Shown here: positions 5,326 to 12,411 of the stretch, in pieces
Numbering within the stretch: the first letter of the stretch is position 1
How the letters are laid out: every line of letters begins with the position of its first letter
Origin: an uncultured Alphaproteobacteria bacterium
GTDB lineage: Bacteria > Pseudomonadota > Alphaproteobacteria > RF32 > CAG-239
DNA length: 12,411 bases
Direction of reading: 5' to 3'
Assembly (NCBI GenBank): GCA_949542085.1
Contig: CATGXW010000004.1
Coordinates: 1 to 12,411, forward strand
The notes under the pieces: generated by a model
Told to the model about the DNA's origin: nothing
Seen by the model: the letters and a program-made list of their open reading frames with translations, nothing else
Database searches by the model: none
Made by a program: the position numbers and the translations under genes

Positions 5326-7086
5326 TTATTCCATGATTTTTTTCCAGATTTCCGCCGGAACATTGCTTCCCGAAACCCCTTTCATCGGACTGTCGTCATC
5401 ATTGCCGACCCACACGGCGGCCACCAGCTTGTTGGTAAAGCCGACGAACCAAGCATCGCGGTTGCCCTGTGATGTTCCTGTTTTTCCCGCGGCAAACTCC
5501 GGTATTTGCGCCCGTTTTCCCGTGCCGTAGTTAATGACGTTGGCTAACATTTTTGTCAGTTTTTCAACCGGTTCTCTTTCCAGAATGCGAACAGGGTCTT
5601 CACGTCCGCGTTGATAAAGCTGATACCCGTCTCTGGTGTAAATCTCTTTAATCGCGTGCGGCCATGAGGCAAAACCGCCGTTGGCAATGGTTGAATAAGC
5701 CGTTGCCATGTCAATAACCTTAACCTCGAAAGTGCCGAGAGGTAAAGACGGCGTGTTTTGAATGGGGGTGGTAATCCCCATTTTCTGAGCGTTTTTGACA
5801 ATATGGTTTCCGGGGAGTTGTTGAGCCAGATTAATGGTTGCTAGATTGAGCGATTTTATCAACGCGTATTCCAAAGATACTTCGCCGTAGTATTTTTTAT
5901 CGGCGTTTTCCGGTTTCCAATTCTTAATGGCGACGGGTGTGTCAAAGAGTTTGTCTTCTCTGTCAAAACCCCGTTGCAAAGCCGTCAGATAAACAAAAGG
6001 TTTGAACGAAGACCCCGGTTGCCGCAAAGCCTGAATTGCCCGATTGAATTGGCTTTTGTTATAGTTTATGCCACCCACCATCGCTTTGACGGCGCCGTGA
6101 TAATCCATAACCACAATTGCGCCTTGCGTCACGTTTTTATGTTTGTTGGCGGTAATCGTCTGTTCAAGGATTTTTGCGGCTTTTTCTTGTAACGACTGAT
6201 CCAGAGTGGTCATAACGTAAATATCGTTGTCACGTTCGCCGATATAGTCGTTGACTTCGTTATAGACCCAATCTGCAAAATAATTGGCGTTTTCAACCTT
6301 ATCACTTTTTTCGGCGCCTAATCTCATGTTCAGAGCTTCTTGCCGTTCTTTTTCGCTGATGGAATTGGTTTCAACCATTGTTTTGAGAACGACTTTGGCA
6401 CGGTCGACCGCCCGTTTTTTGGAGGCGATGGGGTTGTAGCGTGACGGAGCTTTCAACATGCCGGCGATGACAGCCGCTTCCAGCAGATTCAAATCGCGGG
6501 AAGATTTTTGAAAATATTTCTGGCTGGCTGCTTCAATGCCGTAAGTGCCTGTTCCGAGATAAACACGGTTAAGATAGAGTGTTAAAATCTGCTCTTTGCT
6601 GAATTTCTTTTCCAGCCAAAAAGCCAGTAAAAGTTCCTGAGTTTTCCTTTTGATGTTTTTTCTGCTGGTTAAAAACAGGTTTTTTGCAACCTGTTGAGTG
6701 ATGGTGCTGCCGCCTTGCGCGTATCGTCCGGCAAAGACATTGGCAATCATCGCGCGGGTGAATGAAATGATATCAAATCCCGGATGTTCGTAAAAGCGTC
6801 TGTCTTCCGTGGATGTGATGGCGTCGACCACGTACTGCGGCAATTCTTCCGAGCGGATGACCTCGGAATAGACCGTGCCGAAACTTTTGATTTCATTACC
6901 GTTTTCGGCGATGATGGTTGTTGACGGCTGGCGGGTGCGTGAAATGGCGGCTTCCATATCCGGCAGGGTCGCATAGCAATATGCCAGATAAATTAAGAAA
7001 GTTATCACCAGAAGCGCAAATAATTTTAGGAGTCGCAAGCGATTCTTAAGCTTTTGTTTTGACTCTCTTTTTTTTGTTTTTTTCAT
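5326..7086 (-). CDS. Class A penicillin-binding protein, PBP1A family (GT51 transglycosylase plus transpeptidase)
   Basis: A bifunctional peptidoglycan synthase that polymerises lipid II and cross-links peptides at the inner membrane. Numbering is from the ATG at 7086, chosen because AAGGA sits 8 bases before it; an in-frame TTG at 7113 has no such site. Residues 1-20 are a Lys/Arg-rich cytoplasmic tail and 21-40 the membrane anchor. GT51 motifs: EDRRFYEHPG (catalytic Glu94), GGSTITQQVAKN (125-136), RKNIKRKTQE (Glu151) and ILTLYLNRVYLG (167-178). Transpeptidase motifs: SSFK (Ser359, Lys362), SLN (412-414) and KTGTS (535-539). All catalytic residues are present. At 586 residues it is shorter than many PBP1A proteins of 700-850, with little room for an OB-like insert and an abrupt end after the transpeptidase. 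It is separated from gpmI by 91 bases and read in the same direction. Confidence 0.95.
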   Translation of the reverse strand: MKKTKKRESKQKLKNRLRLLKLFALLVITFLIYLAYCYATLPDMEAAISRTRQPSTTIIAENGNEIKSFGTVYSEVIRSEELPQYVVDAITSTEDRRFYEHPGFDIISFTRAMIANVFAGRYAQGGSTITQQVAKNLFLTSRKNIKRKTQELLLAFWLEKKFSKEQILTLYLNRVYLGTGTYGIEAASQKYFQKSSRDLNLLEAAVIAGMLKAPSRYNPIASKKRAVDRAKVVLKTMVETNSISEKERQEALNMRLGAEKSDKVENANYFADWVYNEVNDYIGERDNDIYVMTTLDQSLQEKAAKILEQTITANKHKNVTQGAIVVMDYHGAVKAMVGGINYNKSQFNRAIQALRQPGSSFKPFVYLTALQRGFDREDKLFDTPVAIKNWKPENADKKYYGEVSLEYALIKSLNLATINLAQQLPGNHIVKNAQKMGITTPIQNTPSLPLGTFEVKVIDMATAYSTIANGGFASWPHAIKEIYTRDGYQLYQRGREDPVRILEREPVEKLTKMLANVINYGTGKRAQIPEFAAGKTGTSQGNRDAWFVGFTNKLVAAVWVGNDDDSPMKGVSGSNVPAEIWKKIME

Positions 7087-7165
7087 TTTTTTAATCCTTG
7101 CTTGGAGTCGCAAAGTGTTTTAAAACTTGTTTATTCAATATCATAAAGAAGTTAAGGAAAATTTT
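7087..7165. promoter_or_regulatory. Divergent intergenic region between PBP and ribbon-helix-helix gene
   Basis: The 79 bases must hold the plus-strand promoter for the RHH-polA pair and probably the PBP promoter. One weak plus-strand candidate is TTGCTT (7098-7103), 17 bases, TAAAAC (7121-7126). A GANTC site (7105-7109) lies inside the repeated motif TTGCGACTC (minus strand 7113-7105). The PBP ribosome binding site AAGGA is at 7099-7095 on the minus strand. No operator palindrome for the neighbouring RHH protein is obvious. Confidence 0.4.
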
Positions 7166-7366
7166 ATGAGCAAGGTTTCTGTATCGGTTTCTGAGGATTT
7201 GAAACAAAAAATCAACGCTATTGCCGCCAAAAGCGGAAGAAGCTTTGACGAATGCATTGCTCTGGCGCTTCGCGACTATGTTGACAATTACGAGGATGTT
7301 TACAAAACGGATTTGTGTTCGGTCAGTCAGCTTGAGCGCTCTTTCTTTTTATCTATTGGCGAATAA
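7166..7366 (+). CDS. Small ribbon-helix-helix (CopG/Arc-type) DNA-binding protein
   Basis: A 66-residue protein. The ATG at 7166 is preceded by AAGGAAA and fits the fold; an in-frame TTG at 7127 would add 13 unsupported residues. Residues 2-8 (SKVSVSV) form the expected beta strand that inserts into the DNA major groove. Residues 9-24 (from EDLKQKINAIAAKSG) and 26-41 (SFDECIALALRDYVDN) are the two helices with the turn G-R-S between them. This is the standard RHH pattern of dimeric repressors and type II antitoxins. The C-terminal 24 residues (after YEDVYK) do not match a toxin-binding tail I know, and no toxin gene lies beside it. polA starts 50 bases downstream, so the two may be co-transcribed. 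The fold is likely; target and role are unknown. Confidence 0.75.
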   Translation: MSKVSVSVSEDLKQKINAIAAKSGRSFDECIALALRDYVDNYEDVYKTDLCSVSQLERSFFLSIGE

Positions 7367-7416: not shown

Positions 7417-10173
7417 ATGCCTCAAAAAGTTTGTCTTATTGATGGGTCGGGTTATATTTTTCGTGCTTTTTACGGGCTTCCGCCTTTAACGGCGCCGGAT
7501 GGGACACCGGTGAATGCTGTTTTTGGCTTTACCAATATGTTTATGAAGCTGACATCCAATATTCCGTGTGACTATTGTCTGGTTTTGTTTGATGCCAAGC
7601 GTCAAAATTTCCGCAACGATATTTTTCCTGACTACAAAGGCACGCGCAAAGAAACACCGGAAGATTTAATCCCGCAGTTTTCCATTATCCGCAAAGCGGT
7701 TGACGCTCTTAACCTGAACTATCTGGAAATGGAGGGATACGAGGCGGACGACTTGATTGCGACTTATGCCAAAAAAGCGCTTGCCGAAGGTTTGGAAGTG
7801 ACGGTTGTGTCCGGCGATAAGGATTTGATGCAACTTATCCGCCCCGGTGTTACGTTTTATGATCCGATGAAAGACAAGTTTTTTACGCCGGAAGACGTGC
7901 GTGAGAAATTCGGGGTTTATCCTGACAAGGTTGTTGATGTTCAGGCTTTGTCGGGCGACAGTATCGATAATGTCCCCGGTGTCCCCGGAATTGGCCCGAA
8001 AACGGCGGCTCAGTTAATCAATGAATATGGTTCTTTGGAAGGTGTTTTGGAACACGCTTCCGAAATCAAGCAAAACAAACGTCGTGAAACAATTATTGAA
8101 AACGCTGAAAACGCCCGCATCTCTCTCAAGCTGGTGACGCTGAAAGACGATGTTCCGGTTGAAAAGCCGATTTCAGATTTTCATTGTCGTGCGCCGCAAA
8201 AGGATGTTTTGGATGAGTTTGTGCAAACCTATGGTTTCTATTCTTTGCGTAACAGAATAGAGAAATGGCTGGTTGAACGCTGTTCTAAGGTTGCGGAGAT
8301 GTCGGAAAATAACGCTGTATTTAAAACGGCGGAGATCATAAAAGATTATGAGTTGGTGCAAACGGAAGCCAAACTCAAAAAGTGGGTTGATTTGATTAAT
8401 CGGCACCGCAGATTTTCATTAAGCGTCATGACAACGGGGTTGGATCCTGTGTTTAATGATATGGTCGGGCTGTCTTTGTCCGTAGCGGCGGGGCAGGCAT
8501 GCTATATTCCGGTCAGTCATAGCAAAGATGAAAAAAATCTGGATTTGTTTGCCGAGCATAAGCCTGTTGCTCAGTTGTCGGTTGATTTGTTAAAACGTTA
8601 TTTGCAGCCGTTATTGTCCAGTCGGTCGATTCTTAAAATCGGACACAATATCAAATCGGCAATGCATTTTTTACACAAATCTCTGGCGGTGGAAGATATT
8701 TTCCCGATAGAAGACATTAGCGTTCTGTCATACGATTTGGATAGTTCCGAACACGGACATTCGATCGAAGATTTGTCTGGTTTGTTGTTGGATTTGCAAC
8801 CTCTTCATTTTGAAGATGTCATCGGCAGCGGCAAAAATAAAATTCCTCTCGAAAATGTTGATATCAATCTGGCGTTGGAATATATGGCGCAGCGCGCGGA
8901 TTTCATCTTGCGTTTATATGATCAGCTCAAACCTCGCTTGGTTGCGGAACAAAAAGCGGCGGTTTACGAAAATTTTGACCGCCCGCTGATTTCCACGCTT
9001 TATGCGATGGAGCAACGGGGCGTTATGGTTAATGCGCAGTCCTTGCGGGAATTAAGCGGCTATTTTGATGAGCGTATACATGCCGCCGAGCAAGAAATTT
9101 TCAAGTTGGCGGGAGAAGAGTTTAACGTCGGTTCGCCCAAACAAATTGGTGAAATCTTGTTTGGCAAACTGGGATTAAAGGGCAAGAAAACGGCTTCCGG
9201 CGCATGGCAAACCGGCGCTGACGTGCTGGAACAACTGGCTGAAGAGGGTGTTGGGCTTGCCGATAAGATTCTCGAATGGCGTGAGTTCAGCAAACTGAAA
9301 TCAACCTATACGGATTCCTTGTTTGCTTTAATGGATAAGGAAAATCGCGTCCACACGACCTATAGCCAGATAGTCGCCAATACCGGTCGTTTGTCTTCCA
9401 ATAATCCGAATTTGCAAAATATTCCCATTCGCAGCGAAGAAGGGCGTAAAATCCGTAGTTGTTTTGTGGCTCGTTCGGGATACAAAATCATATCTTCCGA
9501 TTATTCTCAGGTGGAATTGCGTTTGTTGGCGTCTGTTGTTGATGTCAAACGTTTGCAGCAGGCTTTTGCGGATGGGGTGGATGTGCATGCGGCAACCGCC
9601 TCGCATGTTTTCGGCGTGCCTTTGGATCAGGTTGACGCCAACCTGCGCCGTCATGCCAAAGCCATTAATTTCGGAATTGTTTATGGGATTTCGCAATATG
9701 GGCTGGCGCGCAATATCGGAACATCGGCAGCCGAGGCCAAGGCTTATATAGACGCTTATTTTGCCCAAATGCCAGAGATTAAGGCCTATATGGATGAAAC
9801 AATTGCCTTTGCGCATAAACATGGCTATGTTGTCACGCCTTTCGGGCGCAAATGTTCGGTGTTTGGTATTAATGACAAGAATAAAAGGATTGTTGCTAAC
9901 GCCGAGCGTGCGGCGATAAACGCGCCTATTCAGGGAGGTGCGGCCGATATTATCAAACTGGCGATGAATAAGGTTGAAAAAGAACTGGTTTCTCGAGGCT
10001 TTAAAACACGAATGTTGCTTCAAGTTCATGATGAATTGGTCTTTGAAGCGCCTGAAAGCGAAGTTGAAGAGGTTTGCCGCCTGATTAAAGAAACGATGGA
10101 AACCGTTGTTGATTTCAAGGTTCCTTTTGTAGCAGAAGTCGGTGTCGGCGACAATTGGACCGAGGCCCACTAA
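7417..10173 (+). CDS. polA: DNA polymerase I (5'-nuclease, degenerate 3'-5' exonuclease, polymerase)
   Basis: 918 residues, close to the E. coli enzyme (928). It fills gaps and removes RNA primers in lagging-strand and repair synthesis. The ATG is preceded by GGGAG at 7 bases. The 5'-nuclease domain (about 1-290) is intact: Asp9 in LIDGSG, EGYEADD (106-112), SGDKD (132-136), GDSIDN (180-185) and the helix-hairpin-helix GVPGIGPKTAA. The polymerase domain (about 545-918) is intact: TGRLSSNNPNLQNIP (656-670), DYSQVELR with Asp695, the O-helix Arg744, Lys748, Phe752 and Tyr756, and QVHDE with Asp872. The middle exonuclease domain (about 330-505) aligns with E. coli, but its four metal ligands are gone: Asp355, Glu357, Asp424 and Asp501 correspond to Ser336, Met338, Ala415 and Arg493. 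Proofreading is therefore predicted absent, as in Taq and Bacillus Pol I. No terminator is obvious downstream. Confidence 0.98.
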   Translation: MPQKVCLIDGSGYIFRAFYGLPPLTAPDGTPVNAVFGFTNMFMKLTSNIPCDYCLVLFDAKRQNFRNDIFPDYKGTRKETPEDLIPQFSIIRKAVDALNLNYLEMEGYEADDLIATYAKKALAEGLEVTVVSGDKDLMQLIRPGVTFYDPMKDKFFTPEDVREKFGVYPDKVVDVQALSGDSIDNVPGVPGIGPKTAAQLINEYGSLEGVLEHASEIKQNKRRETIIENAENARISLKLVTLKDDVPVEKPISDFHCRAPQKDVLDEFVQTYGFYSLRNRIEKWLVERCSKVAEMSENNAVFKTAEIIKDYELVQTEAKLKKWVDLINRHRRFSLSVMTTGLDPVFNDMVGLSLSVAAGQACYIPVSHSKDEKNLDLFAEHKPVAQLSVDLLKRYLQPLLSSRSILKIGHNIKSAMHFLHKSLAVEDIFPIEDISVLSYDLDSSEHGHSIEDLSGLLLDLQPLHFEDVIGSGKNKIPLENVDINLALEYMAQRADFILRLYDQLKPRLVAEQKAAVYENFDRPLISTLYAMEQRGVMVNAQSLRELSGYFDERIHAAEQEIFKLAGEEFNVGSPKQIGEILFGKLGLKGKKTASGAWQTGADVLEQLAEEGVGLADKILEWREFSKLKSTYTDSLFALMDKENRVHTTYSQIVANTGRLSSNNPNLQNIPIRSEEGRKIRSCFVARSGYKIISSDYSQVELRLLASVVDVKRLQQAFADGVDVHAATASHVFGVPLDQVDANLRRHAKAINFGIVYGISQYGLARNIGTSAAEAKAYIDAYFAQMPEIKAYMDETIAFAHKHGYVVTPFGRKCSVFGINDKNKRIVANAERAAINAPIQGGAADIIKLAMNKVEKELVSRGFKTRMLLQVHDELVFEAPESEVEEVCRLIKETMETVVDFKVPFVAEVGVGDNWTEAH

Positions 10174-10319: not shown

Positions 10320-10361
10320 GACATAGCGCCGTTTTCAGCCTCTACTCCCCAAAGATAATAA

Positions 10362-10373
10362 ACAAAGCTTTGT
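10362..10373. repeat. Perfect 12-bp palindrome ACAAAGCTTTGT
   Basis: The sequence reads the same on both strands and has no spacer, so it suits a dimeric protein-binding site better than an RNA hairpin. It lies 189 bases after polA and 254 bases before the coiled-coil gene. No binding protein is assigned. Confidence 0.3.
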
Positions 10374-10460
10374 GTGAACCTCAACCTGCAGAATTGCTGT
10401 TCGAGGAGATTCTAAAAAGAAAAAAGTTAATTATTTATTACCGATTCCCGTGAGTGAAAC

Positions 10461-10473
10461 CGGCGATTCGCCG
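10461..10473. repeat. GC-rich hairpin CGGCG-ATT-CGCCG
   Basis: Five perfect G/C pairs (10461-10465 with 10469-10473) close a three-base loop. A GANTC site spans the loop. No U-tract follows on either strand, so it is not a standard terminator. Confidence 0.35.
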
Positions 10474-10476
10474 CAA

Positions 10477-10507
10477 AGCAAGACTCAGATTCGTTTTGAG
10501 TCTTGTT
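10477..10507. other. 13-bp stem-loop followed by a palindromic A/T tract
   Basis: CAAGACTCA (10479-10487) pairs perfectly with TGAGTCTTG (10497-10505). Weaker pairs extend the stem at both ends to 13 bp with a five-base loop. The next 12 bases (10508-10519) are the palindrome AAAAATATTTTT. Three GANTC sites lie in the stem. The T-run begins about eight bases after the stem, too far for a canonical terminator, though weak termination of polA transcripts is possible. Confidence 0.4.
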
Positions 10508-10549
10508 AAAAATATTTTTCGATTCGTTTCCGACTCTGGCAAAACAAAA

Positions 10550-10579
10550 TTGCGACTCTGTCAGACTCGGATTTGTATT
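10550..10579 (+). promoter_or_regulatory. Candidate promoter for the coiled-coil gene, overlapping GANTC sites
   Basis: TTGCGA (10550-10555) and TGTATT (10574-10579) are 18 bases apart and would start transcription about 40 bases before the ATG at 10627. One GANTC overlaps the -35 and another lies in the spacer, the arrangement seen at GcrA/CcrM-controlled promoters. Both hexamers match the consensus at only four of six positions. Confidence 0.35.
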
Positions 10580-10626: not shown

Positions 10627-11439
10627 ATGGATCATGTTTATGTTATCATAATCGCCATTGTGGCGATAGTTGTGGCGGCGTGTGTTCGGGAGGTGTTGCG
10701 TCTGCGCAAGTTTTTGCATGAGGAAAAAGAAAAACGGTTGCAAGAGCAGGCGGAAAAGTCCCGAATGAAAATAGATTCTGTTTTGTCCGGCTTTGATGGA
10801 GAAAGAAGAAATATTTTAGAGTTTTCTCCTGAATACAACAAGATTAAAGACGAAGAAAAAGAAACGAGAGATCGTCTTTTGAAAGAGGTTTTGGAAAAAG
10901 TTTACGCCGAGGAGCAACGGACTAAAAAGCGCCTTGAACAAGATGTGGTGCAAGAGATTATCCGTGATGTTGTCCGTAATTTTCGCCATTCCGTGTATCA
11001 GCGTATGAACCGGCCGAAGTTGAAAGAGGAGAAGTTCAAAAAGAGGCTGGTTTCAAAAAGCAATATTGCGAAAGAAAAAGAAAAGCGAAACGAGCAAAGC
11101 AAAGAGAACGAAAAGAAACGTCAGGATGAGCAAAGGCGTCGTGAACAGGATAGCGAGCGGGAGCAGCAGCGTCAGCAAGAACAGCGCCAACAAGAAGAAC
11201 GTCGCCAAAAAGACGAGGAAAAAGCCTCAAAAGAACGTTTAGAAAAAGAAAGGCGTCAACAAGAAGATGCTCGGCAAAAAATCTTACAAAAACGCGGTGT
11301 TGAAAACTCGGAAAAACAATCTGCCAAGGCGTCGGAAACCCATGTTTCGGAAGTGGAAATCAAGCCGGAAGGTCTTTCGGTGAGCAAAGTAGCCTCAGAA
11401 ACCGGAAAAGCGGCTTCCAAAGCGTCAGGCGGTCGTTAA
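10627..11439 (+). CDS. Unknown membrane-anchored, highly charged coiled-coil protein
   Basis: A 270-residue protein I do not recognise. The ATG at 10627 has GGAG six bases upstream; the frame stays open further up but that would place charged residues before the membrane helix. Residues 4-20 (VYVIIIAIVAIVVAACV) form one transmembrane helix with Arg21, Arg25, Arg27 and Lys28 after it, so by the positive-inside rule the rest is cytoplasmic. Residues 30-128 are a charged helical region with ordinary composition (SVLSGFDGERRNILEFSPEY, then EVLEKVYAEEQ and QEIIRDVVRNFRHSVYQRM), possibly a small domain. Residues 133-225 are almost pure Lys/Glu/Gln/Arg low complexity, a likely long single helix. The tail 226-270 is Ser/Ala/Lys-rich. 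The outline resembles TolA or the N-terminus of RNase Y, but no catalytic or binding domain follows. It sits between polA and gyrB with the GANTC cluster upstream. Confidence 0.8.
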   Translation: MDHVYVIIIAIVAIVVAACVREVLRLRKFLHEEKEKRLQEQAEKSRMKIDSVLSGFDGERRNILEFSPEYNKIKDEEKETRDRLLKEVLEKVYAEEQRTKKRLEQDVVQEIIRDVVRNFRHSVYQRMNRPKLKEEKFKKRLVSKSNIAKEKEKRNEQSKENEKKRQDEQRRREQDSEREQQRQQEQRQQEERRQKDEEKASKERLEKERRQQEDARQKILQKRGVENSEKQSAKASETHVSEVEIKPEGLSVSKVASETGKAASKASGGR

Positions 11440-11547: not shown

Positions 11548-12411
11548 ATGAGTTCAGAAATGACGCAAGACGAGATTCTCAAGGAAGAAAAGGAATACGG
11601 CGCTGATCAGATTAAGGTGCTGAAAGGGCTGGATGCTGTGCGCAAACGCCCCGGTATGTACATCGGCGACACGGATGACGGTTCTGGGCTTCATCATATG
11701 ATTTACGAGGTCTTGGATAACGCGATTGACGAGGCTTTGGCCGGTTATTGTGATAAGACTGAAATCATTCTTAATCCTGACGGTTCTGCGACCATTCGTG
11801 ACAACGGCCGTGGTATTCCTGTCGGAATGCACAAGGAAGAGGGAATTTCCGCGGCAGAGGTCATTATGACCGAATTGCACTCAGGCGGTAAGTTCGATAA
11901 CAACTCCTACAAGGTTTCCGGCGGTCTTCATGGTGTGGGCGTTTCTGTGGTTAACGCTTTGTCCACGTGGTTGAAGTTGCGCATTTGGCGTGAAGGACAT
12001 GAGCATATTGCTGAGTTTGCCAACGGTAATGTGACCAAGCATTTGACCGTTGTCGGAGACGCTCCCGGCCGCCACGGAACCGAAGTGACTTTTCTGCCGT
12101 CTCCTGAAACGTTTACACAAACGGAATTTAATTTTGAAACATTGGAGCGTGCTATTCGTGAAAAAGCTTTCTTGAATTCCGGTGTCTATCTGAAATTGAT
12201 TGATCGTCGTGGTCCTGAACCCAGAGAAGCCGATTTTCACTATGAAGGCGGTTTGAAAGCCTTTGTTGACCACATCAACAAATCAAAAGCCCCGTTGCAT
12301 GCCGATGTTATCTCCATTGCCGGCGAGGGAAATGATATTACTGTCGAAGCCGCTTTGCAGTGGACCAACGCCTATAACGAGAGCATGCTCTGCTTCACCA
12401 ACAATATTCCG
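11548..12411 (+). CDS. gyrB: DNA gyrase subunit B, N-terminal 288 codons (cut by window edge)
   Basis: ATPase subunit of the type II topoisomerase that introduces negative supercoils. The ATG follows AGGAATAGGAAAAG. The GHKL ATPase domain is clear: VRKRPGMYIGD (31-41), EVLDNAIDEALAG (54-66) with catalytic Glu54 and Mg-binding Asn58 (E. coli Glu42 and Asn46), RDNGRGIPV (84-92) with adenine-contacting Asp85, the ATP lid with SGGKFDNNSYKVSGGLHGVGVS (112-133) and HGTEVTFLPS (176-185). From about 230 the transducer domain begins (HYEGGLKAFVDHINKSK, QWTNAYNES). GyrB is preferred over ParE because of the gyrase-type AAEVIMTELHSGGKFDNNSYK segment; the TOPRIM part lies beyond the window. The first 20 residues are a somewhat long acidic lead-in (EMTQDEILKEEKEYGADQIK). 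Everything beyond codon 288 is outside the window. Confidence 0.97.
   Translation, partial: MSSEMTQDEILKEEKEYGADQIKVLKGLDAVRKRPGMYIGDTDDGSGLHHMIYEVLDNAIDEALAGYCDKTEIILNPDGSATIRDNGRGIPVGMHKEEGISAAEVIMTELHSGGKFDNNSYKVSGGLHGVGVSVVNALSTWLKLRIWREGHEHIAEFANGNVTKHLTVVGDAPGRHGTEVTFLPSPETFTQTEFNFETLERAIREKAFLNSGVYLKLIDRRGPEPREADFHYEGGLKAFVDHINKSKAPLHADVISIAGEGNDITVEAALQWTNAYNESMLCFTNNIP

Follow-up and report, generated by a model that had tools for sequence, protein, structure and literature searches.

The cluster of GANTC sites between polA and gyrB in the stretch of alphaproteobacterial DNA analysed here (the window, 12,411 nucleotides) is a real, conserved and helically phased array, very probably with a regulatory function. 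In related genomes the spacing of the sites is kept and the array often precedes genes for surface adhesins, an arrangement suggestive of a methylation-read control switch. The array (10408-10568) comprises ten sites, starting at 10408, 10443, 10465, 10482, 10488, 10498, 10521, 10532, 10554 and 10564, and its core reads leftward on the minus strand. In agreement with an earlier note on this DNA, whose positions and counts were all confirmed by a recount, nine sites fall within 126 bases (10443-10568) with one more at 10408, and the left neighbour polA (7417-10173, plus strand) holds three, at 8628, 9267 and 9313; all ten array sites lie within 161 bases. Over the whole window GANTC is depleted: dinucleotide shuffles predict 46.6 sites and the sequence has 28, of which 10 fall in these 161 bases. 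The window's maximum per 126 bases is 9; among 1,200 Markov sequences (orders 1, 2 and 3, with 400 for each order) the highest value was 6, which occurred once.

The ranking of 126-base windows proposed in the earlier note placed the array first in a sample of its own assembly (231,008 bases with 417 GANTC, 1.81 per kb; of the assembly's 309 contigs it takes in the window's own and, in full or for the most part, 20 more), with 9 sites followed by two stretches with 4. In G011, the nearest relative, a 394-kb contig with a long masked part again had the same element first, with 9 sites, followed by 5 and 5. A repeat of a single word was ruled out, as the earlier note had held, by the differing GANTC forms and neighbouring bases. 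One runner-up in the own-assembly sample is 7030-7105 of the window, at the start of a PBP1a-like gene, where four further GANTC occur in 80 bases (7030-7109); these sites recur in many relatives with the spacing kept in part.

An alignment of twenty-eight copies of the element spans about 120 bp and has few gaps. It does not include L097 and L098 (unmatched by the script's anchor), L099 (class B, see below), or L185 and L186 (detected at a later stage); L097, L098, L185 and L186 are counted among the 20 relocated copies described below. On the minus strand of the window the element runs from the flank sites (10521, 10532, 10554 and 10564, spanning 10521-10568), whose places vary between copies while their helical phase is kept, through an A/T tract, AAAAATATTTTT (10508-10519), to a polar core. 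The core begins with the triad GACTC-N5-GAATC-T-GAGTC (10482-10502; GACTC at 10502-10498, GAATC at 10492-10488, GAGTC at 10486-10482), continues with TTTGC and two further GAATC 23 and 45 bp on (10465-10469 and 10443-10447, both minus strand), and is followed by a TTAA-N7-TTA-like box. In the window this is TTAA-N7-TTAC at 10427-10441, a predicted CtrA-like box based on the motif in PMC4287350; the form TAA-N6/7-TTA, as the script defined it, is found in 22 of the 28 copies. GAATC is fixed at two core places, that of the triad and that at 10465, in 28/28 copies each, middle base included, and the remaining core sites are GACTC in 19, GAGTC in 15 and the third GAATC in 17 of the 28.

Between the window and G011, the nearest relative, none of the 50 GANTC bases in 10400-10575 has changed, compared with 10 of the 126 others, so that the check for site loss found all ten sites kept. 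Across the 28 copies the AAA, TTTG and TAA...TTA columns are as constant as GANTC, and conservation is hence wider than GANTC. Several sites are not free in their middle base, so more than 'any GANTC' appears to be read.

The phasing had been noticed after the fact. Recomputed for the window, eight of nine starts lie at 0 or 1 modulo 11 counted from 10443, the exception being 10482, and 10408 lies at 9. The 100 nt upstream of the core contain 51 GANTC in 23 of the 28 copies, five copies having no flank site; a control stretch twice as long, 200 nt per copy, contains 16. This is the highest value among 16 words of the same composition; TCNGA, which ranks second, is raised too (32 against 13). 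The flank sites are 25 GATTC, 20 GAGTC and 6 GAATC, with no GACTC, and on the strand on which the element is read the middle base is G or T in 45/51. They lie near -22.6, -33, -44, -55, -65, -75, -88 and -98, with slots at -59 and -78 out of phase. Of the successive spacings, including the one to the core, 45 of 51 depart from a multiple of 11 by no more than 1 bp, against an expected share of 3 in 11. The best period is 10.8 bp with R 0.82 (51 sites, 28 copies; shared ancestry only partly discounted), and after merging into ten slots R is 0.74 with a P of 7.5e-4, for which the period was scanned and which is not free of shared ancestry. Leaving out the window and G011, 37 of 43 sites fall at 10, 0 or 1 modulo 11 in the frame of the earlier note, and 23 of 43 at the 0 or 1 it had named. 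Since the flank sites shift between copies yet keep the helical phase, the proposed placement on one face of the DNA holds.

The element lies beside polA in eleven congeneric genomes (G000, which is that of the window, G005, G011, G013, G018, G019, G024, G025, G027, G032 and G089). It is followed by gyrB (11548-12411, plus strand, in the window and extending past its end) in ten of them; in G005 the 1,500 nt covered do not contain it. Nine genomes have gyrB directly after polA and lack the element there (G001, G002, G003, G007, G009, G012, G014, G022 and G033), the gyrB word coming 200-265 nt on. The comparison of this region suggested in the earlier note therefore gave a mixed answer: all sites are kept in G011, and about one in three of the better congeneric genomes has no element beside polA. 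The closest match to the polA protein in a comparison with gut alphaproteobacterial assemblies, including Azospirillum sp. CAG:239, has 95% identity. A first model, built from the eleven polA-side copies, found matches at E 0.01 in 33 of the order's 153 genomes, the weakest of which include S10-type sites. With a second, 46 matches were obtained, spread over 30 of 35 congeneric genomes; 26 reach E <= 7.2e-15, in 23/35. Of the 20 weaker ones 18 were fetched, G010:C4 was seen as L233 and G010:C13 was left out. The match at G032:C24 lies inside a reading frame and looks like chance. The exact core pattern, GACTCAAAMMGARTC, occurs 56 times, in 45 of 153 genomes and 10 of 17 genera, against 4 times for the reversed control. 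With one mismatch there are 65 matches against 31 in the control (35 genomes), and because this control is high we relied on the exact search. G114, from another genus, likewise has the module next to gyrB, and a leftward frame adjoins the module on the opposite side.

Away from polA, 14 of 20 copies lie directly upstream of genes of the autotransporter, AIDA or PMP type. The downstream frames match AIDA at L082-L087, L090, L096, L097 and L098, the Chlamydia PMP repeat at L089, L091 and L185, and an autotransporter beta-domain at L056. The frames at L095 and L186 have a secreted look by eye and gave no match in the domain search; L088, L092, L093 and L094 have no downstream frame of 150 codons. 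The search for adhesin-side frames covered the downstream side, and both sides were listed for 20 loci. Several of the 14 copies are at one locus, beside a gene that looks like recF by eye, and are hence not independent. An adhesin gene directly downstream, found for these 14, is absent at the window copy.

A second class (class B), mostly GACTCAAACAGAGTC, has sites at 0, +10 and often +16, the layout of the core triad. It lies upstream of rpsJ/rplC in 17 loci, where S10 was identified by Pfam in one and by eye in the others; the tally, for 28 of 30 loci listed, is 17 class B, 10 class A and one other (L214). At L196 (2220-2281), L207, L210 and others, GACTC-N5-GAGTC stands about 50 bp above a promoter-like pair, TTGCTTGCA...TATGTT, upstream of the S10 operon, and in general class B sites appear by eye some 50 bp upstream of a -35-like word. 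A variant core, GACTCAAAGCGAGTC, was seen upstream of rpoB in G021 (L204, 2305-2398). The placement before adhesin genes and the S10 operon suits a switch.

The right neighbour of the array is an uncharacterised gene (10627-11439, plus strand), whose product looks by eye like a membrane-anchored coiled coil and has no match in a Pfam search. The earlier note described the cluster as lying upstream of this gene, but a role tied to the gene is not favoured: among the polA-side copies it was recognised next to the element only in the window and G011 (73% identity over 247 aa), and, judged from the core polarity at adhesin genes and S10, the core in the window points left, away from it. In G019 a similar-looking gene lies on the opposite side, between polA and the element; its product matches that of 10627-11439 at E 0.13 with low complexity masked and at 1.2e-6 (28%) unmasked. 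With the gene present in G011 and a counterpart of doubtful homology in G019, it was rejected as a fixed target.

From this polarity we infer that the window copy may act leftward, towards polA, on an interval of 235 bp that contains no apparent gene; gyrB, to the right, next to which G114 also has the module, is an alternative target. This region includes a palindrome, CAAAGCTTTG (10363-10372), kept in the polA-side copies with one base changed in 1 of 11, and an inverted repeat around CTGCAG with covarying arms (10376-10402), present in polA-side copies only. A weak leftward promoter-like pair, TTGAGG-N18-TATTAT (10355-10384, minus strand), has 9 of 12 consensus positions, and 5 such sites were found in this region where 1.4 would be expected. 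A possible TTGAC-N18 promoter, directed leftward and overlapping the core, was seen by eye in some copies, was missing in others and was discarded. Further left, between the PBP1a-like gene and polA, lies a ribbon-helix-helix gene (7166-7366). Ribbon-helix-helix proteins bind short repeats, so its product is a conceivable reader of the array.

The look-up of ccrM put forward in the earlier note succeeded: the genome of the window encodes a CcrM-type GANTC methylase (match to CcrMI, 6pbd, over residues 19-368 of 373, E 7.6e-156) with a RAMA domain. CtrA is encoded in this genome, with 69% identity to a Caulobacter sequence, and in 32/35 congeneric genomes. The parallel look-up of gcrA succeeded in part, as GcrA is present in 32/35 congeneric genomes and was not found in the window's own assembly (G000, 87% complete). 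MucR/Ros was found in 0/35 congeneric genomes with a positive Caulobacter control, and a shielding of GANTC by MucR was rejected on this ground.

Binding of GcrA to methylated GANTC, promoters with several GANTC and over-representation of GANTC between genes are described in PMC7987155, PMC5172544, PMC3667746, PMC3973325 and PMC4287350; the Caulobacter sites treated in PMC4287350 lie within 50 bp of a start site, unlike the class B sites some 50 bp above a -35-like word. An extended GcrA motif, YGAKTCK, is discussed in PMC7987155, whose authors report no preference for it in Brevundimonas. It fits 33/51 flank sites against 97/407 in the background and 5 of the 10 window sites. In the core it fits the GAGTC site in 14/15, GACTC in 5/19 and the invariant GAATC at 10465 in 27/28, and the two other GAATC sites in 1/28 and 1/17. 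Limited word searches found no paper linking autotransporter phase variation with GANTC, none on MucR with hypomethylated GANTC and the surface, and none on GcrA with GANTC and the open complex.

We give an even chance to the reading of the array as a cis-regulatory, enhancer-like and methylation-sensitive control region, perhaps read by GcrA and CtrA. CcrM would methylate its GANTC sites, GcrA would occupy the phased methylated sites jointly, CtrA would bind the TTAA-N7-TTA-like box, and the methylation state after replication would set the output. Weighing against this reading are the failure to find GcrA in the window's own assembly, the core sites that YGAKTCK does not fit, the distance of class B sites from the -35-like word, the constant columns outside GANTC, the raised TCNGA count and the five copies that lack flank sites. 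That GcrA molecules sit side by side on GANTC spaced by whole turns, forming a CcrM-based epigenetic switch and a mobile enhancer for autotransporter adhesins and, in reduced form, for the S10 operon, all without MucR, is conceivable and rather unlikely. A real though minority possibility is that a dedicated dimeric or oligomeric factor other than GcrA binds GAYTC-N5-GARTC and the phased half-sites, GANTC being incidental or only adding sensitivity to methylation. Such a factor would fit the inverted repeat GACTC-N5-GARTC common to the S10 upstream region, the excess of the exact core over its reversed control, the middle base fixed at two sites in every aligned copy and the constant columns outside GANTC. 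It sits less well with the flank, which holds GATTC, GAGTC and GAATC, every form but GACTC, and is enriched in the GcrA-type extension.

A structured RNA, as a gene or a leader, is improbable as the main identity of the polA-side copy, with GANTC as a by-product of the RNA sequence. In one helix both partners have changed in 7 of 9 pairs, against at most 2 in slid controls; however, this helix was chosen by eye from the same sequences, has one pair unpaired in 6/11, lies outside the 120-bp core and is missing from adhesin-side copies that keep this core. Rfam, tRNA and tmRNA searches of the region gave no match, and for the adjoining 190 nt the folding z-scores from 10 genomes (10 of 12 prepared loci) average about -0.2 on the minus strand and -1.2 on the plus strand, with 3/10 below -2. 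A small RNA on the minus strand left of the array, whose stems look good by eye, was therefore dropped, the folding energies giving no support for that strand. An origin of replication, or a chromosome-anchoring site like the GATC cluster of oriC such as the earlier note had offered beside a methylation switch, is very improbable. The GANTC density and the neighbours polA and gyrB would favour it, but copies occupy differing loci between genomes, before adhesin genes, and the skew minimum of G011 is at 206 kb with the element at 255 kb (part of the contig is masked, roughly 65-75 kb read as N as judged from flat skew). The likely oriC of G011 (G011:C1 202.15-202.5 kb; L060 2150-2500), with several GANTC and with DnaA-box-like words and TTAA-N7-TTAA boxes at 202.2-202.5 kb, is 53 kb from the element, and the origin role was abandoned. 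The methylation switch is the part of that proposal that finds support, with CcrM present, sites and phase kept, and copies before adhesin genes and S10.

According to PMC3667746 and PMC4287350, the Caulobacter GcrA/CcrM promoters (mipZ, podJ, ctrA P1) likewise have upstream GANTC, with CcrM present and CtrA boxes nearby. They differ from the array, which combines ten helically phased GANTC and a fixed triad: mipZ has two juxtaposed sites, and of 96 cell-cycle start sites only 11 carry several GANTC within 50 bp. The MucR-shielded, hypomethylated P169, with four GANTC, resembles the array in having several sites in a promoter region, and CtrA can compete with CcrM where sites overlap (as described in PMC5172544). 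Compared with MucR-shielded promoters, the array has more sites, these are phased, and MucR is absent from the 35 congeneric genomes. Regulators of the OmpR/PhoB type bind phased repeats that follow each other at one or two helix turns and so lie on a single face of the DNA. The array shares this spacing and single face, but its half-site is GANTC and no such regulator was matched; CtrA is of the same type and has its own box.

Dam methylation switches at adhesin genes are classic in gamma-proteobacteria, as in agn43 (with OxyR) and pap, where methylation sites cluster upstream of the genes. The relocated copies share this clustering before surface-adhesin genes, whereas the methylase and the word differ, agn43 and pap have fewer sites, helical phase is a property of the array, and the window copy has no adjoining adhesin gene. 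A GANTC counterpart with helical phasing would, if true, add a cooperative, enhancer-like mode to the CcrM system. A CcrM switch would, if true, tie surface variation and growth genes to replication-dependent methylation without MucR. Sites that move between genomes at constant phase offer a natural experiment in the simultaneous use of multiple sites by a reader, and the triad common to the array and the S10 operon makes the identity of this reader open to direct test.
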